This document shows, one piece after another, positions 7,370 to 60,424 of a DNA stretch of 64,000 nt (position 1 is the stretch's first letter; each line of letters begins with the position of its first letter). Source of the stretch: an uncultured beta proteobacterium (GTDB taxonomy: Bacteria > Pseudomonadota > Gammaproteobacteria > Burkholderiales > Burkholderiaceae_C); the NCBI GenBank assembly GCA_903905735.1, contig CAIVHU010000016.1:1-64000 (forward strand), read 5' to 3'. The notes under the pieces are model-generated. The model was not told the DNA's origin and ran no database searches. It saw only the letters and a program-made list of their open reading frames with translations. A program made the translations under genes and the position numbers.

Positions 7370-8630
7370 TGCGCAACCTGACGACCTGCAGACCTGGTTG
7401 GCAGCGCTGGCGCAGACCGGCACGCTGATTGAACTCGCCGTGCTGGCGGCGTGTGCGCTGCTGGCCTGGCTACTGGCCAACCTGGTCGCCAGGGCATTTG
7501 AGGGCCGTGATGCCAACAGCATCACCTTTGGCAAACGTATCATTGATGGTGTGCTGTTCCCGGCCCTGTGGCTGAGCTTGGCGTATCTGGTGCGCAAACC
7601 GCTGTCCCTGACGGTGCATCTGGCGGCTTTCAAGATCGCCATTCCGGTGCTGCTGTCGCTGCTGGTGATTCGTCTGGGTGTCAAAGTATTGCAGGCGGCC
7701 TTTACCGAAACGCCACTGATCAGGTTACTCGAGCGCAGTATTTCCTGGCTGGCCTGGCTGGCTTTTGTGTTGTGGGTCACCGGCTTGTTGCCGGTCGTGC
7801 TGGCAGAACTTGATGACATCAGCTGGAAGGTCGGCTCCAGCGAATTGTCAGCGCGCAAGATCATCGAGGGCTCGCTGACCGCCGCGCTGGTGCTGATCAT
7901 CACACTGTGGATATCGTCCGCCATTGAGGCCAAGCTGCTGCGCCACGCCACTGGCAGCGAACTGAGCCTGCGCAAGGCCTTCAGCAATGCGGCCAAGGCC
8001 TTGCTGATGTTTGTCGGGCTGTTGCTGGCTTTGTCTGCGGTGGGCATTGACCTGTCGGCTTTGTCGGTCTTGGGTGGTGCGGTGGGGGTGGGCATTGGCT
8101 TTGGTCTGCAGAAGCTCGCCGCCAATTACGTGAGCGGTTTTGTGATTCTGGCCGAGCGCAGTATGCGCATTGGCGACACCGTTCAGGTGGACAACTTCAG
8201 CGGGGTCGTCACCCAGATCAATGCACGCTACACGGTGATCCGCTCGCTCAGTGGCCGCGAATCCATCGTACCCAACGAGATGCTGATCACCAGCCGGGTC
8301 GAGAATCTGTCGCTGGCTGATCCCAAAGTGTGGCAGTTTGCCACCGTGTCGGTGGGTTATGGCAGCGATGTGGAACTGGTCACACGGCTGCTGCTGCAGG
8401 CAGCAAGCTCGCAGGCGAGGGTGCTGACAGACCCCGGCCCGACGGTGGCGCTGATGAATTTTGGCGCCGACGGGCTCGAGTTCCGGCTTGGTTACTGGAT
8501 CAGCGACCCCGAAAACGGCAGTGACAACCTGCGATCACTGGTCAATATGGAGATCCTGCGGCAGCTGCGCGAGCATCAGATTGATATTCCTTACCCGCAA
8601 CGGGTCATTCATCAGCGGGTTGCGGTGTGA
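7362..8630 (+). CDS. MscS family mechanosensitive channel
   Basis: A 422-residue membrane protein. About five hydrophobic segments are followed by the MscS pore helix and beta domain: LSVLGGAVGVGIGFGLQKLA, then VSGFVILAERSMRIGDTVQV and SIVPNEMLITSRVENLS. It resembles the larger MscS-like channels (YnaI/YbdG type) that gate under membrane tension and protect against osmotic downshift. The start overlaps the end of the deacetylase-like gene, indicating co-translation. Confidence 0.9.
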   Translation: MSDAQPDDLQTWLAALAQTGTLIELAVLAACALLAWLLANLVARAFEGRDANSITFGKRIIDGVLFPALWLSLAYLVRKPLSLTVHLAAFKIAIPVLLSLLVIRLGVKVLQAAFTETPLIRLLERSISWLAWLAFVLWVTGLLPVVLAELDDISWKVGSSELSARKIIEGSLTAALVLIITLWISSAIEAKLLRHATGSELSLRKAFSNAAKALLMFVGLLLALSAVGIDLSALSVLGGAVGVGIGFGLQKLAANYVSGFVILAERSMRIGDTVQVDNFSGVVTQINARYTVIRSLSGRESIVPNEMLITSRVENLSLADPKVWQFATVSVGYGSDVELVTRLLLQAASSQARVLTDPGPTVALMNFGADGLEFRLGYWISDPENGSDNLRSLVNMEILRQLREHQIDIPYPQRVIHQRVAV

Positions 8631-9606: not shown

Positions 9607-10542
9607 ATGACCGTCCTCGTTATTGCCGAACACGACAACACCCACCTCAAACCCGCCACCCTGAACACCATCACCGCTGCCAGCCAACTCGGTGGTGACG
9701 TGTTTGTGCTGGTGGCTGGCTTCAACGCCGCCGCTGTGGCTGCTGCCGCTGCACAGGTCGCTGGTGTGAGCAAAGTTTTCCACATCGATGCCGACACCCT
9801 GGCCCACGGCGTGGCCGAAAACGTCAGCGCCCAGGTGCTGGCCCTGGCGGGTGGCTACAGCCACATCCTGTTTGCCTCCACCGCCTCAGGCAAGAACATT
9901 GCCCCGCGCGTGGCGGCCAAGCTCAATGTTGGCCAGATCTCTGACCTGACCAAAGTCATTAGCCCCGACACCTTTGAGCGACCGATTTACGCTGGCAACG
10001 CGATTGCCACCGTGCAAAGCACGGATGCGATCAAGGTCATCACCGTGCGTACAACGGCTTTTGATGCTGCAGCCCAGACTGCACAAGGGCCAGCAGCTAT
10101 TGAGACCATAGCAGCAGCAGCCGTGCCGGGCAGCACCATCTACGTCGGTAGCGAGATCGCCACCAACGATCGCCCTGAACTGACCGCCGCCAAGATCATC
10201 GTCAGCGGTGGCCGGGCGCTGGGCTCACAAGAGAAGTTCAACCAGGTGATGATCCCGCTGGCCGACAAACTTGGTGCCGCCGTGGGTGCCAGCCGCGCGG
10301 CGGTGGATGCCGGTTACGCCCCGAACGACTGGCAGGTCGGCCAGACCGGCAAGATCGTGGCACCGCAGCTCTACATTGCCGCAGGCATCAGCGGTGCCAT
10401 CCAGCATCTGGCGGGCATGAAGGACAGCAAGGTCATCGTGGCCATCAACAAAGACCCCGAGGCACCGATCTTCAGCGTGGCCGATTACGGGCTCGAAGCT
10501 GACTTGTTTGTGGCGGTGCCGGAATTGGTTGCCGCCCTTTAA
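9607..10542 (+). CDS. etfA: Electron transfer flavoprotein alpha subunit
   Basis: A 311-residue ETF alpha subunit. The C-terminal FAD-binding domain is clear: [58 protein letters not shown] and [23 protein letters not shown] chose ATG 9607 ([11 protein letters not shown]) with GAAGGA in front rather than the ORF-track start at 9580. A stem-loop terminator follows 17 bases after the stop, so etfBA can be expressed without the downstream dehydrogenase gene. Confidence 0.97.
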
Positions 10543-24068: not shown

Positions 24069-24072
24069 TAGA

Positions 24073-24120
24073 TATACAAATGGCCTCTAGCCCTTATGCA
24101 TAAAGGACGACCAGCTACTG
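24073..24120. repeat. Palindromic element copy 4 (start of EamA gene)
   Basis: tacaaatggcctctagccctt followed by atgcataaaggacgaccagctactg matches the element. The ATG of the downstream EamA gene lies in the loop, so its first eight or so residues (MHKGRPAT) are element-encoded. The right half is very close to the copy in cysI (gggcgaccagctcctgaaac). Confidence 0.8.
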
Positions 24121-26091: not shown

Positions 26092-27087
26092 ATGACCTCA
26101 CACACATCCCGCGCGATACAGATCGACCAGCATGGTGGCCCCGAAGAGCTCAAGCTGGTGCAGGTCAGCGTGGGCGAACCCGGCCCAGGTGAAATCCGCA
26201 TTCGCCACCACTCCGTGGGGCTGAACTTCATTGACGTCTATCAGCGCAGTGGCCTGTATCCCGCGTCCATGCCCCTGAAACTCGGCATGGAAGCCGCTGG
26301 TGTGGTCGAGGCTGTGGGCGAGGGCGTGACTCACCTCAAGGTCGGCGACCGGGCCGCCTATGCCAGCCAGCCCCCCGGCAGCTACTGCGACCTGCGGGTG
26401 ATGCCCGCCAAATGCGTCTGCAAGCTGCCCGATGCGATCAGCTTCGAGACCGGCGCAGCGATGATGCTCAAGGGCCTCACCGCGCAATACCTGCTCAAGC
26501 GCACCCTTCCGCAGGGCGGCTTCCAGCCGGGCGATTTTGTGCTGTTTCACGCCGCCGCCGGGGGCGTGGGCCTGATCGCCTGCCAGTGGGCCAAAGCCAT
26601 GGGCCTGCGTCTGATTGGTACCGCAGGTTCAGATAAAAAATGTGCTCTAGCCCTTGCCAATGGTGCGGAGTTTGCTATCAATTACGCATCTGAAGACTTC
26701 CTGATCCGGGTCAAGGAGATCACTGGTGGCAAGGGGGTCCGGGCGGTGTATGACTCGGTGGGCAAAGACACTTGGGACAAGTCGCTGGACTGCCTGGCCC
26801 CTTTTGGCCTGATGGCCAGTTTTGGCAACGCCTCGGGTCCGGTGGCCCCGTTTTCACCGGGCATTCTCGGCCCGAAAGGCTCGCTGTACGTGACGCGCCA
26901 GACCCTGTTCACCCACATCGCCACGCGTGAGAGCACGCAGGCTATGGCAGACGACCTGTTCGCCGCCGTCACCAGTGGGCAGGTCAAGATTCACATCGAG
27001 CAGCGCTACAAGCTGGAATTCGTGCAGCAGGCACACCGCGATCTGGAAGCGCGCAAGACCACAGGTTGCACCGTGTTGACGTTGTAA
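26092..27087 (+). CDS. qor: NADPH quinone oxidoreductase, zinc-independent
   Basis: A 331-residue MDR-family quinone oxidoreductase. It shows the N-terminal groove block (HHSVGLNFIDVYQRSGLYP), the NADPH-binding motif AAAGGVGLIACQWAKAMG and AGSDKKCALALANGAEFAINY, and lacks the zinc ligands of alcohol dehydrogenases. It reduces quinones with NADPH. ATG 26092 has AAGGAG in front. Codons around 26632-26685 resemble the palindromic element, but family alignment shows no inserted residues. Confidence 0.93.
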   Translation: MTSHTSRAIQIDQHGGPEELKLVQVSVGEPGPGEIRIRHHSVGLNFIDVYQRSGLYPASMPLKLGMEAAGVVEAVGEGVTHLKVGDRAAYASQPPGSYCDLRVMPAKCVCKLPDAISFETGAAMMLKGLTAQYLLKRTLPQGGFQPGDFVLFHAAAGGVGLIACQWAKAMGLRLIGTAGSDKKCALALANGAEFAINYASEDFLIRVKEITGGKGVRAVYDSVGKDTWDKSLDCLAPFGLMASFGNASGPVAPFSPGILGPKGSLYVTRQTLFTHIATRESTQAMADDLFAAVTSGQVKIHIEQRYKLEFVQQAHRDLEARKTTGCTVLTL

Positions 27088-36575: not shown

Positions 36576-39500
36576 ATGTCTGAGTTCAATGCTGACCCAA
36601 GCACGCCACGCGGCTTCATGGTGCTGCACGGCAACCGGCTGGAAGACCTGCGCGACCTGCTGGTGAACTACGTGGCGGCGCACCCGCTCGCGCCACTGGA
36701 GCCCGAAGTCATCCTGCTGCAAAGCAACGGTATGAAGCACTGGCTGGAGCTGGCGCTGGCCGACGACGCGGCCCTGGGTATTTGCGCTGCCACCCGTATG
36801 GAGCTGCCGAGCAGCTACCTGTGGCAGATGTACCGCGCGGTGCTGGGGCCCGATGCGGTGCCCGAGCACATGCCGTTTGACAAGTCGGCGCTCTTGTGGC
36901 GGCTGTTGCGCCTGCTGCCCGCGCTTTGTGGGGCCCATGCTGTTTATGCGCCACTCAAACGTTACCTGTCGGGTGACAACCCGGCGGGCAAGTTGTACCA
37001 ATTGGCCGAGCAGCTGGCCGACGTGCTGGACGGCTACCAGAGCTACCGCGCCGACTGGCTGGCTGACTGGGCCGCGGGCTTGGACCAGTTGCGCGGGCCG
37101 CAAGGTGCACCGCAGCCGCTGCCGCCGGAGCACGCCTGGCAGGCGCAGCTGTGGCGCGACATTCGTGCCGACGTCGGCCCGGCGCTGATGGAGGCCTCAC
37201 GCGCCAGCGTGCATGAGCGCTTCATGGCGGCTCTGGCCGGTATCAGCTCTGAAAATAGTAGCAGCCAGCGACCGCCAGGCTTGCCGCGCAGGCTGATGGT
37301 GTTTGGTATCTCGTCGCTGTCCACACAAGTGGTGCAGGCGCTCGCCGCTTTGGGCCAGGTGTGCCAGGTGATGCTGCTGGTGCAAAACCCTTGTCAGTAT
37401 TTTTGGGGTGACATTGTTGAAGGCCATGCCGCTTTGCGCGCCCAGGTGCGTCGCAGGCAGCAGGGCAAGCCGCTGCTTTCCACCCGTGCCATCGTCGCGT
37501 CGCCAGCCCCAGCCCCAGCCACCCAGCCGCTGCTGGCCTCCTGGGGCAAGCAGGGGCGCGACTATTTGCACCTGCTCGACGGTTTTGACGAGCCTGAGCG
37601 CTACCGCGCGCACTGGAGCCGGGTCGATGTGTTTGTGGACCCGGCACGGCCGGGCGGTGTGCCAGCCTCGCAACTGGCGCAACTGCAGTCGGCCATCTTC
37701 AACCTGTCTGCGCCGCCAGAGCAGCCGGCGGAACAAGCAGACGACGGCTCTTTGATCTTTGTTACTGCCCACAGCGCCCAGCGCGAACTGGAGGTGCTGC
37801 ACGACCGCCTGCTGGCCTGGCTGGAGGCGGACGCCGCGCTGCAGCCGCGCGATGTGATGGTGATGGTGCCCGACATGGCGGCCTTTGGGCCGCATATCCA
37901 CGCGGTGTTTGGCCGGTTTGCGCCGGGGCAGCCGCGCTACATCCCGTATTCGGTGGCCGACATCACGCCGCGCCAAAGCCCGCTGGTGCAGGCGCTGGAG
38001 CAATTGCTGAACCTGCCGAATAGCCGCTTGTCGCTGGCCGACTGGCTGAGCCTGTTTGAAGTGGCTGCCGTGCGCCAGCGCTTCAAACTGGACGAAGCAG
38101 CGGTGCGCCAGGTGCAAGACTGGTTGGCCGCCGCCGGGGTGCGCTGGGGTCTGGATGCTGACCATCGGCTGGCCTGGGGCCTGCCCGCAGGGGTGCAAGG
38201 TCTGGATCAAAACACCTGGGCGTTTGGCCTGCGCCGTCTGCTGCTGGGGTATGCACTGGGCAGCAGCGCAGGTTTGGATGCGTCTGATGGCGCGATGTGG
38301 TGCGACACCCTCGCGCAACCGGCCCTGAGCGGTCTGGATTCACCACAGGCCGCCGGCCTGCTGGACTGGGTAGGCGCCATGGAGCAAACCCTGCCGACGC
38401 TGCAGCTTGAACAGGCCCCCATCCAGTGGGGCCAGACGCTGCAAGCGCTGGTAGAGCGCTTTTTTGCCCCCTCAGACGATGCCGACGAGCGCGCCATCGA
38501 GCGACTGTTGTCACCGCTGGAGGTGTGGCTGCAGGCCTGCGAGGACGCTGGGCTCGACACCCCGCTGCCGCTCGACGTGGTGCGCGAGCACTGGCTGGCC
38601 AACATTGCTGAGTCGGGCCTGCAGCAGCGCTTTTTTGGTGGCGGCGTGCAGTTTGGCACCTTGATGCCGATGCGCTCGATCCCGTTCAAGGTGATCTGCC
38701 TGCTGGGCATGAACGACGGTGCCTACCCGCGCGTGCAGGCCGCGCGCGATTTTGATCTGATGGCCAGCAGCTGGCGCGCCGGGGACCGCTCGCGCCGCGA
38801 GGACGACCGCTACCTGTTTCTTGAGGCCCTGCTGTCGGCGCGCCACACCCTCTACATCAGCTGGCAAGGCCGCAGCGCCGCCGACAACAGTCCGCGCCCG
38901 CCCTCGGTGCTGGTGGCGCAGTTGCTCGACGTGGTCAATGCCTGCTGGCTACCCGCGCGCGCGGCGCAGCCGCAGCCGCTTCAACCGTTCTCTGAAGCCT
39001 ATTTTGAGGCCGGTTCACCTTACCAGACCTATGACGCTGATTGGGAGCATATTCGGCCTCAAGCCCTTATTTATAAATGGAAGGCAGCTATGGAAAGCAT
39101 ATCAACTCGGGCGACAGATGTAGCTGTTGCGGTTGCTGCAGCGCCGCCGTCCAGCCTGACGCTGGGCGACCTGCAGCGACTGCTTCGCCAGCCGGTGGAT
39201 GTGTTTTTCCGCAACCGGCTTCAGGTGGAGTTTGACAGTCTGGACGAGCTGGAGCAGGAGGATGAACCCTTTGCCCTGAACCCTTTGCAGCAACACCTGG
39301 CCGGTGCCGCGCTGCTGCAGGCTGGGGGCAACGCGCAAGCCCTGCACAGTCTGCGCGCCGCAGGCACGCTGCCGTTGGCCGGTTTTGGCACCCGGCTGGC
39401 CGACGAGCTGATGAGCAAGACGCATACCGTGCTGCAGTCGCGCGCCACCTGGCTGCAGCATTACCCGGCGGCGCTGGCGGCGTTGCCGATTGAACTCACG

Positions 39501-40115: not shown

Positions 40116-43707
<3,592 letters not shown>

Positions 43708-49079: not shown

Positions 49080-50405
49080 GCTCATAGTCAGCAAGACCTC
49101 GTGAATGCCTTGCACCAAGGCCTGTGCGGTGGCTTCAGTGAGTCTTTCAGCGTCATAGCCGACATTCAGAAACAGCCGCCCGTTGTACGAACTGGCCGCT
49201 GTGAACAGCGTCTGGTAGGGCATGGGGCACAGGGCGAACGAGATGGCATGCACGGCCGGGTCGTCTGCCACGGGATCGACTCTGCCAATGTTGCTGATCA
49301 TGGTGTTGGGCAGCGAGGCCAAGGCCTTCTTGCGAAATGGTTCCATGGCCTGCGGCGGCACGGGTGAGCCGTCCAGCCCATACAGGTGGTAGAGCAGGTG
49401 GCCCTCACCGCGTGCAATCTGCAGGCGGGTCTGTGTGATGACCTCGCGCGCAAGTCCCCACGGGTCGGTTTCCGGGCCGGTCTGGAAGGTGCCTGAAATC
49501 AGTGAGGTGAAGAATCCGGTCGGGCTGGCCGGAGGCTCGCCTTCGAGGTACAGGCGCAGGTCCACCGGGCAGGAGAGGAAAAATGCGTTGGGCTGGTCTG
49601 TCTGTTGCAGCCGGTATTGCGCCAGCAACTGCGCGGCGCACAACGCGCCATGCACGGTGCTGCTGTTGGCACGCGCCTGATCAATCAGCGCCTGGCTGGT
49701 ATCGGCATCGAGTTGCAGCCGGACCAACCGGGGCTCCCGGCCGACAGCCTCAGTCGCCAGCCAGGGCATGACGGGCATCGCACCGTGGCGGCGGTAGTCG
49801 GTGATCAGCGTGGTGCGCAGCTGTTTGGCAGCTTCCGGCTGCTCCACCCAGCGGTAATGTGCGGGCATCAGCTCGGCCATGGAAGGCAGATGCGTGGGCT
49901 GGCCGCTGGCTGGCGGGGCTATGTCTTGCACCATCAGGTTCAACACGCGGCGCAAGATTTCGGTGCCGGAGCGGCCATCGGCGACGGAGTGGTGGAAAGT
50001 CAGCGCCAGCACACATGATTTGGCAGGGACGCTGGCAAGTTCGGCGGGCGCATTCGCGGGTTGGACTTCGAGATACAGGCAGCGCATCAGTGGCGCGCTG
50101 CCGGTCGGGAAAGGCTTGGACAGCTCCTGCTCGATGACGCTGTGCCAAGTGTCGGCAGATGCTTCATGGCACAGCAGCTCAATCGCCTCGCCGGGCGCGG
50201 GCTCGAACCGCAAGCCTTTGCCCTCGGTCCATTCGATGCGGGTTTGTAGCAGGGCGTTGTCCTGCTGGATCACGTCAAGAGCGCGGCGGATGCGCTCAGT
50301 CTCCAGCGTGCCGCTGCGCTCGGCCAGCACCACAAAGTTCATGCACGACACATGGTCGGACAAAAAGAAAAACGCTTCACCGGGGTCGAGAGGGCGTGAG
50401 ATCAA
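49065..50405 (-). CDS. WS/DGAT-like acyltransferase, condensation fold
   Basis: A 446-residue CoA-dependent acyltransferase-fold protein. It has HHSVADG near residue 140, matching the HHxxxDG catalytic motif of wax ester synthase/diacylglycerol acyltransferases and NRPS condensation domains, and a C-terminal block (YNGRLFLNVGYDAERLT). It probably transfers an acyl group to an alcohol or amine. The start appears to be TTG 50405, with AAGGTAGG upstream and a stop just before; no ATG lies before residue 20. The TAG stop is element-derived. Confidence 0.75.
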   Translation of the reverse strand: MISRPLDPGEAFFFLSDHVSCMNFVVLAERSGTLETERIRRALDVIQQDNALLQTRIEWTEGKGLRFEPAPGEAIELLCHEASADTWHSVIEQELSKPFPTGSAPLMRCLYLEVQPANAPAELASVPAKSCVLALTFHHSVADGRSGTEILRRVLNLMVQDIAPPASGQPTHLPSMAELMPAHYRWVEQPEAAKQLRTTLITDYRRHGAMPVMPWLATEAVGREPRLVRLQLDADTSQALIDQARANSSTVHGALCAAQLLAQYRLQQTDQPNAFFLSCPVDLRLYLEGEPPASPTGFFTSLISGTFQTGPETDPWGLAREVITQTRLQIARGEGHLLYHLYGLDGSPVPPQAMEPFRKKALASLPNTMISNIGRVDPVADDPAVHAISFALCPMPYQTLFTAASSYNGRLFLNVGYDAERLTEATAQALVQGIHEVLLTMSQNTR

Positions 50406-50423
50406 GATAGCCTACCTTATCAA

Positions 50424-50473
50424 TAAAAATAGCTTCCAGCCCTTATCAGTCAAGGGCTGGAAGCTATCATTTT
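50424..50473. repeat. Palindromic element copy 10, perfect hairpin
   Basis: ATAGCTTCCAGCCCTT-atcagtc-AAGGGCTGGAAGCTAT is a perfect 16-bp stem with a 7-base loop, flanked by aaaa and tttt. On the minus strand a T run (TTTTTATTG) follows, so it should terminate the transglutaminase-DUF2126 transcript. It is the best-preserved copy here. Confidence 0.95.
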
Positions 50474-50489
50474 AGTTAGTCGTCGTGGG

Positions 50490-53400
50490 TTAGCCGCGGC
50501 GCAAATCCAGCGTGAATGGAAACTCGCGGCTGCCGGGCACATTGATGGTAGCCGGTGGAATGTTCATGATCCCCGGCGTGTGGCCCATGGCGGTGAAGCG
50601 CGACAGGCGGCGGCTTTCTGCCTCGTTGGCATTGACCGGCAGCGCCTGGTAACTCAAGCCGCCCGGGTGCGCCACGTGGTACTGGCAGCCGCCCAAGGAG
50701 CGCTTCATCCAGGTATCGACCACATCAAACGTCAGCGGCGCGTGCACACCAATGCTCGGGTGCAGGCTGCTCGGCGGGTTCCAGGCCTTGTAACGCACCC
50801 CGGCAACATATTCATCTTGCACGCCGGTGGGCTGCAGGCTCATGGCGCGGCCGTTGCAGGTGACCACATAGCGGCTCTCGTTCATGCCGGTCACGCGCAC
50901 TTCAATGCGTTCCAAGGAGGAGTCCACATAACGTGCGGTGCCGCCCGGCGCGCCTTCTTCACCCATCACATGCCAGGGCTCCAGAGCGTTGCGCAGGGTC
51001 ATCTGGATACCGGCGGTGCAGATGGAGCCAATCAGCGGGAAGCGGAACTCCACGTGCGGGGCAAACCAGCTGTCGTCAAACGCAAAACCAGCCTCGCGCA
51101 TCTCGGCCATCACGTCGTGGAAATCCATCGCGATGAATTTCGGCAGCATGAAACGGTCGTGCAACTCGGTGCCCCAGCGGGTGGCGGGGGCGCGGTACGG
51201 TGTTTTCCAGAAGCGGGCAATCAGCGCACGCAGCAGCAACTGCTGCACGCTGCTCATGTGCGGGTGCGGCGGCATCTCGAACGCGCGCAGCTCCAGCAGG
51301 CCCAGGCGGCCGGTGGACGAGTCGGGCGAATACATCTTGTCGATGGAGATTTCGCTGCGGTGCGTGTTGCCGGTGGCGTCGATCAGGATGTTGCGTAGCG
51401 TGCGGTCAATCAGCCACGGCGGCATCGACTGGCCATAGATCTCCCGGTTCTTGTAGATCTGCTCGATGGCGATTTCCAGCTCGTACAACTGGTCGTTGCG
51501 CGCTTCATCCACCCGCGGTGCCTGGCTGGTCGGGCCGACAAACATGCCGCTGAACAAGTAGCTCAATGAAGGGTGGTTGTGCCAATACAGCAGCAGGCTG
51601 GCCAGCAGTTCCGGCTTGCGCAGGAACGGGCTGTCAGAGGGCGTGGCACCGCCCATCACAAAGTGGTTGCCACCGCCGGTGCCGGTGTGGCGGCCGTCGG
51701 TCATGAACTTCTCTGCGCTCAAGCGCGACTCGAACGCCGCGTTGTAGAGGAATTCGGTGTTGTAAACCAGCTCTTTCCAGTTGTTGGCCGGGTGGATGTT
51801 GACCTCGATCACGCCTGGGTCCGGCGTCACGCTCAAGAGTTTCAGGCGCGGGTCACGCGGCGGCGGGTAGCCTTCGATGACGATCTGCACGCCCAGTTCC
51901 TGCGCGGTGGCTTCCACGGCAGCCAGCAGGTCCAGGTAGTACTCCAGTCGCTCCAGCGGCGGCATGAAGACATAGATCGCGCTGGATTTTTCACCGACTG
52001 CTTCGGCCTTGGGGCCGCTGGCACGGCGCGGGTCGCGTACTTCCACACACAGGGCGGTGCGGGTGATCCAGTGGGCAGACTCCTGGCGCTCAGGGGCGCG
52101 GGCAAAGTCAGCGGGCTCGGCTTGCAGGGCGCTTTGGGCGTGGCTGGCGGTGCTGGTGTTGCTGTTAAAGGCCGTGGGGTTCTGCATCAGCCGGGTGGCT
52201 TCAGTTGGTGGCAAGGCCCCAGCGACAAACGGCATGGCTGTTGTCGCATTGGCGGCGCCTGATGCCGCCGCAGCAGCGGCAGCGCGGCGGGCCGCGCCCA
52301 GCGCCAGGCCAGCCTTGCCGGGAGCGTGACCGCCAGCGGCATAAGGGCCTGAGGCGTACCTGCCGCTGGCGTAGTCTGGTGCCATCTGGCTAGGCGCGTA
52401 ACGTGCGGCCAGGTCGGCATACACCGGCAAGTCGCCACGCAAGGTCGATGGGTCCTGCTCGATCATGTACGGAAAGTCGGCCTCGCTGACCCAGGGCAAG
52501 GAATCGAGCGGCAAGCGCAGGCCCATCGGTGAATCGCCGGGCATCAGGTACATGCGCTCGTCACGCAAAAACCAAGGGCCTGTCGTCCAGGCAGCGCCAT
52601 ACACCTCGTCATAACCCGCCACCTTGACCGGCAGCACGTAGCCCACGGGCGTGTCGAGCTTTTGCGTGAAGACGCGGCGAAGGCGCGCACGTTCCATCTC
52701 GTCGTCGAGCTTGGAGTTGAACGGATCCACATTGACCGGCAGGCGGCGCTCGCGCCACAGGTAATACCAACTGTCTTCAAATGCGGTCTGCACGTATTTG
52801 TCAGTCAGACCCAATTTGCCCGCCAGCAGACTGGTGAAACGCTGCGCGTCTTGACTGGTGTAGTGGCTGGTAACGCGTTCATCGGCAAACAGGGCCGGGT
52901 TGGACCAGACCGGCTGGCCATCGGCGCGCCAGTAAATGTTCAGCGCCCAGCGGGGCAACTGCTCGCCGGGGTACCACTTACCCTGGCCAAAGTGCAAAAA
53001 GCCGCCTTCGCCGTATTCCTTGCGCAGTTTGTGCACCAATTCGGTGGCAAAACCGCGTTTTGTCGGGCCGAGGGCATCGGTGTTCCACTCTGGTGCGTCA
53101 CGGTCGCTCACTGCCACAAAAGTGGGCTCGCCACCCATGGTCAGGCGCACGTCGCTGGCGGTCAGATCTGCGTCCACCGCGTCCCCGAGGGCCATGATGT
53201 CGGCCCATTGTTCTTCGGTGTAGGGTTTGGTGACGCGGGGTGATTCGTAAATGCGGGTGACCTGCATGTGGTGTGCAAATGTCACCTCGGATTTGTCGAC
53301 GCCGCCCTCAATCGGTGCGGCGCCTGAAGGTTGCGGCGTGCAGGCCAGCGGAATGTGGCCTTCACCGGCCAGCAGACCCGAGGTGGCATCCAGCCCCACC

Positions 53401-54283: not shown

Positions 54284-55771
54284 TCAGTTCACCAGCACGG
54301 CTCCTGCGGTGCGGTGCGTGGCGGTATCCACGAGCACCAGCGAGCCCAGCACGCGCGACTGCGCAAACGGCAGCGCGGCAATCGGCTCCTGCAGCAGCAA
54401 TTCGATGTGGCCGATGCTGTTGGCACTCAGGCTGTCGGCGGCCTCCTCGGCCAGGGTGTTGATGGCCAACCGGTGCACCACGCGTTTGACCCGCGCCTTG
54501 ACCCAGCGGTGGCCGTGTAACGCCCAATACACTCGCCCGGCCACCAGCGGTTCGTCATCCATCCAGGCCACGGTGGCGCTGATCTCACGGCTGGGTGGCA
54601 GGCTGGTGGCCGTGGGCGTGTCGCCAAAGTCGTCATCAGAAACGATAGCTGTAGACGCAGGTTGAATAAGGGCCAGCAGCCAATCGCCGCGTGATACATC
54701 CAGTTCGCGGTCCAGCACCACACCGGCGCTGTGACCGGCTTGCACGCTGCCGGGTTGGCGGGTGGTGCCCAGCACTTGGGCGACGGTGGCGGTCTGGCCG
54801 CTGGGCAACACTTTCACCTGTTGGCCCACTTGTGCCACGCCGCCCGCCACGCGGCCCCAGAAAATCCGGCGGCCCTGGGAGGTGTCTGCGGATGACGAGA
54901 ACCTAGCGGCCCCCTCGGGGGGCAACGCAGTAGGTGCAAGGACAAGCGTCGGGGCGGGTTTCTCGACCCACTGCACCGGGAAGGCAAAGGGCAGATCGGT
55001 TTCGGCAGGCGTCACAGGGAGCAACTCCAGAATGTCGAGCAGGCTCGGACCGTTGTATCCGCACCATCCGGGCACTTCATCGACCACGTTGTGGCCTTTG
55101 AGGGCCGAAATCGGGACGATGGTGGTCACCTCGATGCCAGCTTCTAGCGCAAAGGCTTCCAGCGCGTCGCGAATATGGGCAAACGCCCGCGTGGCCTGAC
55201 CGGCAGTCTCTGGCCTGGCGGCATCTTCCAGAGCGTCGAGTTTGTTGACGGCAAATACGATGCTGGGCACGCGCAGCAGGTGGCACAACAGGCTGTGGCG
55301 GCGCGTCTGGGGCAACAGTCCATGGCCCAGGCCTGAAGGTGGCTGCACCGTACCTGGCGCCATGGCCCAAGGCAGTTTGGTGGCGTCGACGAGCACCACG
55401 GCGGCGTCGGCTTGAGAAGCGGCGGTGACCATGTTGCGGGTGTATTGCTCGTGGCCGGGGGCGTCACCGATGATGAATTTGCGCTCGGCAGTGTTGAAGT
55501 AGCGCCAGGCCACGTCGATGGTGATGCCCTGTTCACGCTCGGCGCTCAGGCCGTCGGTGAACTGGGCCAGGTCGGCCTCGCCGCTTCGGGAGACGTTGGC
55601 GAGTTGGTCTTGCAGCACGCTTTTGCTGTCAAGCAGCAGGCGGCCAATCAAGGTGCTCTTGCCGTCATCGACGCTGCCGCAGGTGATGAACTTGAGGGCG
55701 GATTGTTGGTCAAATTGGCCTGTAGCCCTTGTGTATTCTGGGCTGATAGCTACTGAGTTTGTAGTGTTCAT
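54284..55771 (-). CDS. cysN: Sulfate adenylyltransferase subunit 1 CysN
   Basis: A 495-residue EF-Tu-like GTPase that drives ATP sulfurylase with CysD. GTPase motifs are FITCGSVDDGKSTLIGRLL (P-loop), GDAPGHEQYTRNM (G3) and VFAVNKLDALED (G4). It is longer than usual CysN without a kinase domain because three repeat insertions lie in frame: an element in the N-terminal 20 residues, the GC-rich repeat near residue 285 and an element near residue 370. It is separated from cysD by 591 bases. Confidence 0.94.
   Translation of the reverse strand: MNTTNSVAISPEYTRATGQFDQQSALKFITCGSVDDGKSTLIGRLLLDSKSVLQDQLANVSRSGEADLAQFTDGLSAEREQGITIDVAWRYFNTAERKFIIGDAPGHEQYTRNMVTAASQADAAVVLVDATKLPWAMAPGTVQPPSGLGHGLLPQTRRHSLLCHLLRVPSIVFAVNKLDALEDAARPETAGQATRAFAHIRDALEAFALEAGIEVTTIVPISALKGHNVVDEVPGWCGYNGPSLLDILELLPVTPAETDLPFAFPVQWVEKPAPTLVLAPTALPPEGAARFSSSADTSQGRRIFWGRVAGGVAQVGQQVKVLPSGQTATVAQVLGTTRQPGSVQAGHSAGVVLDRELDVSRGDWLLALIQPASTAIVSDDDFGDTPTATSLPPSREISATVAWMDDEPLVAGRVYWALHGHRWVKARVKRVVHRLAINTLAEEAADSLSANSIGHIELLLQEPIAALPFAQSRVLGSLVLVDTATHRTAGAVLVN
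54638..54682. repeat. Palindromic element copy 11, in frame within cysN
   Basis: gaaacgatagctgtagacgc, then aggttgaataagggccagcagcc. On the minus strand it encodes L-A-L-I-Q-P-A-S-T-A-I-V-S, an extra stretch in the beta-barrel region of CysN. The frame matches the recC and recB 43173 copies. Confidence 0.75.
54903..54945. repeat. GC-rich repeat, family 2, copy B, inside cysN
   Basis: agcggccccctcggggggca, then acgcagtaggtgcaag, matching the intergenic copy at 14849-14890. In frame it encodes A-P-T-A-L-P-P-E-G-A-A-R in CysN. Confidence 0.65.
55711..55760. repeat. Palindromic element copy 12, at the cysN start
   Basis: caaattggcctgtagccctt, then gtgtattctgggctgatagctactgag. On the minus strand it encodes N-S-V-A-I-S-P-E-Y-T-R-A-T-G-Q-F, nearly the entire extension before the GTPase fold. 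Confidence 0.88.
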
Positions 55772-56362
55772 TGTAGTTTCCGTCGTTTCGTTTGCTGACA
55801 GTTTTGTTAACGTGAATTACCCGGCTTTGTGGCAGATGGTGTTTTAACCCGCAGCGCGCAATGGATATCTAACTCCGCGGATCTCCCCCGGCCCTTCGGG
55901 CCTCCTCCTTGATTCCGCTGCGTCAGACACCCAACCCACGCTGCTAGGCGGTGTTGTTATCGCAGTCACTGTCACAGCCGTTTTTGATGATGGCATTGGC
56001 GTTGTCCGGTTCATTGCATCGGTGGCGCTAGGCGGGGTGATTGGGGTATGTGACCGGGCTTTGGGGTGGAACGCGCGCGCCCACAGCCGATGGCGAGCTG
56101 AGGCTTCAATTTCGCGCGTGTTTTCACCGCAAAACCGCATGCACATGCCCCGGTCGCCGCGCCGGGTTCAACGTGATCCCGACATAAGCGAGGAAAATTC
56201 CCGGGCAAAGATTCGTATTTGGCGTGAACCTGCAGAGTCGTGACCATGAAATGGCGCTTTCTTGTGCAACCCGCTGAATTGGGGTCAGAGCCGTTCCGCT
56301 GCGCGGCCGGATCTGACCCCAATTCAGCTACCGCCAACGGGTCGCAAGGTTGGTCATTCACG
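55772..56362. other. 591-base gap between cysD and cysN with no gene
   Basis: CysD and cysN normally lie almost end to end, but here a gene-free stretch separates them. It contains a GC-rich segment with ggcccttcgggcc (near 55890) and a REP-like inverted repeat at 56273-56328. ORFs in the track (56011-56442, 55844-56146, 56022-56243) have no recognisable protein features and overlap the repeats. It looks like an accumulation of small repeats. Confidence 0.7.
56273..56328. repeat. REP-like inverted repeat
   Basis: gctgaattggggtcaga and tctgaccccaattcagc are perfect 17-base arms with a 22-base GC-rich loop. The ttggggtcaga motif resembles sequences found next to RAYT (IS200-like REP-associated) transposase genes in proteobacteria. 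No transposase is present here. Confidence 0.88.
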
Positions 56363-58606: not shown

Positions 58607-60424
58607 TCAATCGGTCAGCGCGTCAGCCGTGTTCAGATGCACATGCAGCACCTGTCCGGCATCGCGCGTTTCGTGACGCGCGGCGTTGGCAGCGGCTTTG
58701 AAGGGCTCAAGCCCCAGGCGGCGCACACAGGTGATGAAGCGCTCGCCAATGCGCCGGTAGATGCGGTAGGTGTCCAGCAGCGCCTCGACCACGTCGGCCA
58801 CTTCGCTGGCCGCAAATGATGGGCCGATCACCTTGCCCGGCGTAGCCGGGCCCGACAGCGTGGAGCCGTCCGAGCCACCGAGTGACACCTGGTACCACTC
58901 GCGGCCGTCCTTGTCCACACCCAGCACGCCGATGTGGCCGCTGTGGTGGTGGCCGCAGGAGTTGATGCAGCCGCTGATGTGCATGTCGATCGCACCCAGG
59001 TCAAACAGCTCGTCCAGGTCGGCAAAACGGCGGGTGATGCTCTCAGCCACGGGAATAGAGCGGGCGTTGGCCAGCGCGCAAAAGTCGCCACCGGGGCAGG
59101 CGATCATGTCGGTGAGCAGGCCGATGTTGGCGCGCGCCAGGCCCAGCGCGTTGGCGGCTTGCCACAGCGCGGGCAAATCCTCCACGCGCACCCAGGGCAG
59201 CAGCAGGTTTTGCTGGTGGGTGACGCGCACTTCGCCGGCGCTGAAGCGTTCGGCCAGATCGGCGGTGGCATCCAACTGATCGGCGGTGGCATCACCGGGC
59301 GCAAAGCCCAGCCGCTTGAAGGAGAGGGTGACGGCGCGAAGAAGCTGGTTTTTGTGCGCCCGCACATTTTGCTGCAGCCAGCGCTGGTAGGCCGCCTGCT
59401 CTTTGGGGGTGAACTCAGCTACTACGGTTTCAGGAGCTGGTCGCCCTTGTTCTAAAAGGGCTACAGGCATAAATGATGCTGAAACCCGGTCCAGCTCGTA
59501 TTGAGGAATGGTGTGCTGGCCACCGTCGTGGTCCAGGACCGCCTGGTACTCGGCGTTGACCTCATCGACAAAACGCTCACCCTCGGCCTTGACCAGAATC
59601 TTGATGCGCGCCTTGTACAGGTTGTCGCGCCGACCCCAGCGGTTGTAGACGCGCACCACGGCTTCCAGATAGTTCAGGATCTGGTTCCAGGGCAGGAATT
59701 CGCGCAGCGTGCGCGCAATCATTGGCGTGCGACCCATGCCGCCACCCACCATCACCTTGAAGCCGACCTGACCGTCAGCGTCGCGCAGCAGTTGCAGGCC
59801 AACATCGTGCCAGGCGGTGGCAGCGCGGTCTTCACGCGCGCCGGTCACGGCCAGCTTGAACTTGCGCGGCAGGTAGGCAAATTCGGGGTGCAGCGTGCTC
59901 CATTGGCGCAGGATCTCGCAATACGGGCGCGGGTCAACCAGCTCGTCGGGTGCAATGCCGGCCAGCGCGTCGCTGGTGATGTTGCGGATGCAGTTGCCGC
60001 TGGTCTGGATGCCGTGCATGTCGACACTGGCCAGCAGGTCCATCACGTCAGCGCTCTTCTCCAAAGGAATCCAGTTGAACTGCACGTTTTGGCGTGTCGT
60101 GAAATGGCCGTAGCCCACCGGCAGGTGCGGTGTGCCCAGCTCGGCTTGTGTGGAGGAAGCGGTATGAAACACCTCGGCGCTGGGCTGGTCAAACTCGCGG
60201 GCTATGCGTGCCAGCACGCGCAACTGGCGGCTGGCCAGCTCGCCGTAGGGCACGGCCACGCGCAACATGGGCGCGTAGCGTTGCACATACCAGCCGTTTT
60301 GCAGGCGCAGCGGTCGAAAGTCGTTGTCGGTCAGTTCGCCTGACATGTTGCGCGCCAGTTGGTCGCGGTATTGCTCGGCGCGACGACGGATGAAGTGGCG
60401 GTCAAAGTCGGTGTATTGGTACAT
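58607..60424 (-). CDS. cysI: Sulfite reductase hemoprotein CysI-like
   Basis: A 605-residue siroheme/[4Fe-4S] sulfite reductase. Cluster cysteines are IACPGGDFCALA and SGCINSCGHHHSGHIGVLG; substrate arginine/lysine blocks are HFTTRQNVQFN and ASSTQAELGTPHLPVGYG. It reduces sulfite to sulfide with six electrons. No CysJ flavoprotein gene is linked. ATG 60424 (MYQYTDFD) follows AGGTGAT; ATG 60430 overlaps the small ORF stop and is an alternative. A palindromic element encodes residues near 320-338 (FMPVALLEQGRPAPETV). Confidence 0.95.
   Translation of the reverse strand: MYQYTDFDRHFIRRRAEQYRDQLARNMSGELTDNDFRPLRLQNGWYVQRYAPMLRVAVPYGELASRQLRVLARIAREFDQPSAEVFHTASSTQAELGTPHLPVGYGHFTTRQNVQFNWIPLEKSADVMDLLASVDMHGIQTSGNCIRNITSDALAGIAPDELVDPRPYCEILRQWSTLHPEFAYLPRKFKLAVTGAREDRAATAWHDVGLQLLRDADGQVGFKVMVGGGMGRTPMIARTLREFLPWNQILNYLEAVVRVYNRWGRRDNLYKARIKILVKAEGERFVDEVNAEYQAVLDHDGGQHTIPQYELDRVSASFMPVALLEQGRPAPETVVAEFTPKEQAAYQRWLQQNVRAHKNQLLRAVTLSFKRLGFAPGDATADQLDATADLAERFSAGEVRVTHQQNLLLPWVRVEDLPALWQAANALGLARANIGLLTDMIACPGGDFCALANARSIPVAESITRRFADLDELFDLGAIDMHISGCINSCGHHHSGHIGVLGVDKDGREWYQVSLGGSDGSTLSGPATPGKVIGPSFAASEVADVVEALLDTYRIYRRIGERFITCVRRLGLEPFKAAANAARHETRDAGQVLHVHLNTADALTD
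59419..59476. repeat. Palindromic element copy 14, in frame within cysI
   Basis: ggtttcaggagctggtcgcc, then cttgttctaaaagggctacaggc. On the minus strand it encodes A-S-F-M-P-V-A-L-L-E-Q-G-R-P-A-P-E. Its right half closely resembles the element at the EamA start (RPATE against RPAPE). Confidence 0.8.

Follow-up and report, generated by a model that had tools for sequence, protein, structure and literature searches.

Introduction

Genome-wide motifs that have a species-specific spelling and reach into coding sequences are best known from DNA uptake sequences, in two naturally transformable families. Uptake sequences are short, near-exact words with thousands of copies. Those of the Neisseriaceae occur in dialects (PMC3630211), and an intragenic orientation bias of uptake sequences has been described as well (PMC2346458). 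Short repeats that reside in frame within housekeeping proteins are known as the Rickettsia palindromic elements, of approximately 150 bp (PMC10969869), and MITE insertions in coding genes have been reported for the QMITE of Coxiella (PMC5896051). REP/BIME sequences, associated with RAYT transposases, are quasi-palindromic, occur in high copy number and are denser between genes. In the literature on repeats and uptake motifs of the family studied here, the only directly relevant report that we found is a motif scan from 2017 (PMC5217627). It lists, as possible new motifs, GCTTAT(N)5AAGCG, with 114 copies in Acidovorax ebreus, and ATAGCT(N)22CAAAAG, with 125 copies in Polaromonas naphthalenivorans. 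Both are mostly intergenic, near gene ends and with few copies in genes, and the scan gives no function for either.

Here, we describe repeat DNA in the cysN gene and its surroundings, in a 64,000-nucleotide stretch of DNA from an uncultured beta proteobacterium (the window). One of the two repeat families involved, which we call D1, is a two-box, quasi-palindromic motif of approximately 53 bp (consensus about AAATTGGCCTCTAGCCCTTATnnAATAAGCGCnAGCAGCTATCAAATTAATAG). Like the Rickettsia palindromic elements, D1 is found in frame within housekeeping proteins, but it is shorter, about two thirds of its copies lie outside genes and its consensus bases are maintained. With the uptake sequences of Neisseriaceae and Pasteurellaceae it shares species dialects and an intragenic bias, but it is longer, degenerate and less numerous.

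Results

CysN Carries Repeat DNA in Three Segments

The cysN gene (Table 1) encodes subunit 1 of sulfate adenylyltransferase; the protein scores 368.6 bits against TIGR02034 (curated cut-off 336.1 bits), and cysD and cysH are located upstream. Its length is as stated in the original prediction, according to which CysN carries three repeat insertions of two families. We compared the gene in a codon alignment with cysN of 26 genus relatives and of outgroups; the protein of the relative G024 is 91% identical to that of the window. Two repeat families are indeed present, at a level above chance, and the GC-rich segment in the middle of the protein is a true insertion, but the N-terminal and barrel segments, which carry D1, are shared by relatives. 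It is therefore likely that the repeat DNA in the three flexible segments of CysN has come about by two different routes.

AlphaFold, run on a protein alignment that omitted five rows, among them L031 with its stop codon, gives a pLDDT below 50 for residues 1–22, 275–299 and 370–380/382–388, and all three repeat-bearing segments are predicted to be disordered, variable stretches of low confidence. Weak constraint, which had been offered to explain several hits in one gene, is borne out insofar as all three segments are variable and fall in these stretches. The codon alignment further revealed approximately 10 extra residues in the G-domain (Table 1), which are not obviously repeat DNA and are common to just four other genomes (G024, G028, G006, and G030), not all of them close kin. 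The cysD-cysN spacer (window positions 55772–56362) measures approximately 590 bp here and approximately 190 bp in G004. It contains an inverted repeat, GCTGAATTGGGGTCAGAGCCG (56273–56328), as well as a GC-rich hairpin close to 55885, with a possible effect on cysN expression.

Table 1. Features of cysN and D1 sites discussed in the text, in window coordinates. D1 scores are from a model of 33 copies from which the CysN copies were left out; E-values are over 289 kb.
Feature	Position	Strand	Details
cysN, sulfate adenylyltransferase subunit 1	54284..55771	-	495 aa; TIGR02034 match
G-domain stretch	55319..55366	-	approximately 10 extra residues within residues 136–151; codon alignment
57-bp in-frame insertion, truncated GC-rich palindromic element	54902..54958	+	residues 272–290, PAPTLVLAPTALPPEGAAR
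D1 site, CysN start	55712..55764	+	codons 3–20; antisense phase 1: TTNSVAISPEYTRATGQFD; 39.5 bits, E = 1.3e-10
Weaker D1 site, CysN barrel	54636..54684	-	residues 363–379; sense phase 2: DWLLALIQPASTAIVSDDD; 23.2 bits, E = 1.8e-5
D1 site, sulfite reductase-like gene of the cysN cluster	59422..59472	-	in frame; 33.5 bits
D1 site within recB	41347..41395	-	profile match and comparison with relatives
D1 site within recB, strongest of the window	43174..43224	+	45.1 bits
D1 site within recC	39051..39100	+	same-place D1 in G024, G004, and G009

A GC-Rich Element Inserted at the Domain Linker

The GC-rich repeat that had been noted in the middle of the protein, cggccccctcggggggca (54907–54924), lies within the 57-bp segment, and this segment corresponds to a gap of 19 codons in every other CysN of the genus that covers the site, as well as in the displayed homologs from outside the genus. 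In a BLAST comparison with the syntenic region of G024, the match ends at 54901 and restarts at 54959, with the subject bases adjacent. The gap in the relatives together with the adjacent bases in G024 indicates that 57 bp were gained without loss or duplication of the target. The empty site is thus clean, as for a recently inserted MITE; no direct repeat that could represent a target site duplication was found at the junction GAGAA/TTTCTC. With a length of 3 × 19 and no stop codon, the segment keeps the reading frame, and it falls between the end of the match to the GTPase domain (query position 272) and the start of the match to the barrel (query position 302) in an alignment against 1ZUN.

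The GC-rich element has at least 19 matches in each of the genomes G001, G006, G011, G016, and G017, and approximately three in the genome of the window. Other copies consist of a left block, gccgggccgccccaa, and a right block, ggccccctcggggggcagcgcagtac...gacaagcgtggggg, and the copy in CysN comprises the right block alone. In many copies the left block is bordered by complementary, copy-specific arms, forming a hairpin with a constant loop. The element is frequent only in D1-poor genomes (the five named above; loci L134–L146).

As judged from the sequence of one assembly, the GC-rich segment is a real, lineage-specific, single in-frame insertion, and a truncated copy of the palindromic element would have entered the linker between the GTPase domain and the barrel with the frame intact. 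It is probably neutral for CysN. The closest parallel is the Coxiella QMITE (PMC5896051), likewise a non-coding palindromic repeat inserted in frame in coding genes; the CysN copy differs in that it is truncated, with no target duplication seen. The segment provides a clear, small example of a palindromic repeat that lengthens a domain linker.

The N-Terminal and Barrel Segments Are Probably Old D1 Sites

The repeat DNA at the start of CysN and that in the barrel belong to one family, D1 (Table 1), and the N-terminal site is the second-best match in the window to a model that excludes it. Most members of the genus have the N-terminal extension itself, as do Curvibacter, Polaromonas, Paracidovorax, and others, and D1 DNA can be detected at this place in G024, G004, G009, G012, G013, G022, G023, G025, G032, G033, and L002, with a weak match in Polaromonas glacialis (L012). 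The barrel segment, too, is widespread, although some genera and some members of the genus lack it; orthologous D1 DNA is present in L085, L099 and, as a weak match, L083. Both segments are of similar length in most relatives, several of which are without recognizable repeat DNA, and for this reason they are not separate insertions into cysN, as had been supposed. In part of the genus, the residues of these two segments occur without repeat DNA, the outcome that the original prediction had named as its refutation; this is not the case for the GC-rich segment. Both the N-terminal and the barrel segment are probably orthologous copies of a D1 motif that is old and has been maintained.

Repeat DNA at all three places in CysN could also mean that cysN is a preferred target, hit by three separate insertions. 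We consider this extremely unlikely, as two of the three segments are common to relatives and D1 clustering does not exceed expectation: at the measured in-gene density, the 273 kb sampled from this genome should hold approximately 0.8 genes of the size of cysN with at least two D1 copies. A target preference is not supported on this basis. Other genes with more than one copy include recB (two) and a tandem uvrA (three).

At the other D1 sites of the window that could be aligned, relatives likewise hold either D1 or a remnant of similar length. A same-place D1 is found in G024, G004, and G009 for the CysN N-terminal site and the recB site at 43174; that of the sulfite reductase-like gene is in the same place in G024 and G009 and has been substituted away in G004 at near-equal length. 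Alignment succeeded at all but several of the window sites, and none of the aligned sites has a clean empty counterpart. The D1 loops of LeuRS, ThiL and the sulfite reductase-like protein differ little in length across most genus members, including genomes that are nearly devoid of D1.

D1 occurs in DNA-maintenance genes, with copies in the tandem uvrA (L124:6052–6104, 8396–8446, and 10215–10267), recB (window 41347 and 43174) and recC (39051). Insertions of approximately 2.2 and 2.9 kb in G024 begin beside D1 sites of the window (24069–24081 and 50404–50490). Matches to D1 on both strands at 50418–50478 form a 27-bp inverted repeat on the 3′ side of a long gene of the minus strand, resembling a terminator. 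Another family of repeats, whose copies encode RHCGPDPQS..WMPDQARHDT or MDRHGLRSRDD..VIASQARQS, has in-frame insertions in recB of G024 (L263), where it directly adjoins a D1 site, and in sulfite reductase-like genes of G021 and G003 (L170 and L173).

Copy Number, Reading Frames and Distribution of D1

Counting matches of at least 20 bits, we found approximately 37 copies of D1 in 273 kb of the genome of the window (G000), 45 in 460 kb of G009 and 74 in 480 kb of G024 (1.21 Mb in total). Extrapolated from the 273 kb and assuming an even spread, this corresponds to approximately 700 copies per genome. Density is higher between genes than within them. About a third of the copies lie in genes called with a home-made codon model (16 in G000, 10 in G009, and 24 in G024), residing in frame as Rickettsia palindromic elements do. 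The 16 include a match at 10066 (EtfA-like) that may be native sequence resembling D1; the same holds for matches at 26637 (oxidoreductase) and L113:16971 (PriA), which fall below the cut-off.

Two reading frames, sense phase 2 (25 copies) and antisense phase 1 (15 copies), account for 40 of the 50 in-gene copies. In the consensus, for which frame labels differ from those of the in-gene count, the antisense frame alone, among the six, is free of stops; the sense frame has one stop, located in the variable spacer, and one further frame has a single stop as well. The recurring peptides are roughly xPLALxxxAQAAIEx and xNSIAxSAxxxRAxGQF, and CysN carries one of each frame. As genes hold fewer than half of the copies and D1 occurs on both strands, the constraint appears to act on the DNA and not on the peptide.

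The motifs of the 2017 scan (PMC5217627) resemble D1 in words and spacing (the last word of the Polaromonas motif is, in our reading, one dialect off), belong to the same family and are of high copy number. Compared with D1 by eye, GCTTAT(N)5AAGCG contains CTT-T, five bases and AAGCG, and in G000 its first word is spelled in a dialect variant. We identify both motifs, by words and spacing, as D1; the paper contains neither the full-length motif nor the coding frames, dialects or function.

At least one strong match to D1 is present in 33 of 101 genomes of the family (one per genus), where the match counts are lower bounds in many genomes, and the genomes sampled from other families gave none. 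D1-rich and D1-poor genomes are interleaved in a LeuRS tree of the genus: G003 and G021 are poor among rich genomes, and G013 (rich) and G019 (fairly rich) are placed in the other clade. This interleaving suggests that D1 was lost repeatedly within the genus.

Since D1 is quasi-palindromic, of high copy number and denser between genes, it could be a REP-type element that is spread by a RAYT (Y1) transposase, but this is very improbable. Y1_Tnp is found irrespective of whether a genome is rich or poor in D1, and the D1-rich genome G160 lacks it, giving no association with RAYT, and RNAalifold found no consensus pair among 33 copies of D1, unlike the conserved stem-loop of REP/BIME. A search of the window against Rfam gave no match.

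D1 Is Probably Maintained at the DNA Level and Occurs in Dialects

Individual copies of D1 are 59–64% identical to each other. In G000, the identities equal those of independently shuffled columns, which indicates that there are no recent copy families; copies in G009 and G024 are slightly more spread or structured than such nulls. At orthologous sites, 190 of 205 strong-consensus bases are retained, versus 408 of 575 bases in intergenic flanks (p = 1.3e-11). For coding D1 compared with G024, 165 of 175 consensus bases are kept, versus 518 of 627 flanking bases and 44 of 69 weak positions of the same element.

The consensus is spelled differently from genome to genome: AGCCCTT...AAGcGCnagc in G000, AGCgCTTgT...AaGCGCAAGc in G009 and AGCCCTTAT...AAGGGCTaat in G024. 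Using profiles trained exclusively on non-orthologous copies, we found that the orthologs lean more to the profile of their own genome than the window copy does in five of five pairs for G009 and nine of ten for G024, so that species dialects, as known from uptake sequences, appear at shared sites in 14 of 15 pairs, a small sample. This lean extends to the coding copies, among them the CysN N-terminal site. The G000 profile is weak, its training set comprising 22 copies, and in a leave-one-out control it barely tells copies of G000 from those of G024; both the dialect and the retention figures come from few sites, among which alignability favors conserved ones. Taken with these limits, the data make it likely that D1 is held by selection or drive at the level of the DNA and predates the species compared.

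Discussion

Our analysis suggests that D1 is maintained by a DNA-recognizing factor, which may be a binding protein or the machinery for DNA uptake. Orthologous sites, including those in coding sequences, lean toward the consensus version of their own genome, and in proteins D1 occupies variable stretches, mostly in two of the six frames. The least specific candidate is maintenance by a DNA-binding factor that reads the two-box site. Tentatively, and at somewhat less than even confidence, D1 may be a DNA recognition system of the family, with dialects, read by a putative factor that serves chromosome organization or uptake. D1 holds 44–53 bits of information, more than the roughly 14 bits that, by our own arithmetic, would be needed to mark 700 sites.

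D1 could also be a protein-coding selfish repeat of great age, comparable to the Rickettsia palindromic elements, that inserted before the genus arose, partly in frame, and is now in slow decay. Its residence in frame within housekeeping proteins fits such an origin, as do the loops of D1-poor relatives that resemble decayed D1 and the absence of the barrel segment from some genera and genus members. D1 moreover comes as whole units of 45–53 bp, with its 9-mers almost confined to them, as a copying element would also give. Decay is, however, at odds with the retention of consensus positions in copies whose weak positions drift, with the lean of orthologs to the current dialect of their own genome and with the lack of copy subfamilies in G000, and we regard this explanation as unlikely. 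The evidence for maintenance is compatible with an insertional origin of D1 that was followed by maintenance.

A more specific form of recognition would be that D1 is a DNA uptake sequence, accumulated by biased transformation, with a dialect that drifts in step. The dialects, the intragenic orientation bias and the patchy loss of D1 agree with this, and ComEC is present in all 36 genomes searched; as it is equally present in D1-poor genomes, ComEC does not discriminate. Against the short words of uptake sequences stand the length and low pairwise identity of D1, and the rarity of its words outside whole units argues against a short core word. We judge it distinctly improbable that D1 is an uptake sequence.

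D1 thus looks like a genome-wide motif with species-specific spelling in a large environmental family, long and degenerate, and without a clean fit to any known class. A DNA motif can give rise to loop peptides, for example NSIAxSAxxxRATGQF or PLALxxxAQAAIE, and where repeat DNA is the only evidence for an "insertion", the place may be an ancestral site that is occupied. If maintenance by a recognizing factor is correct, the drift of the D1 dialect would drag along the sequence of disordered loops in CysN, sulfite reductase, RecB, RecC, UvrA, LeuRS, and ThiL.
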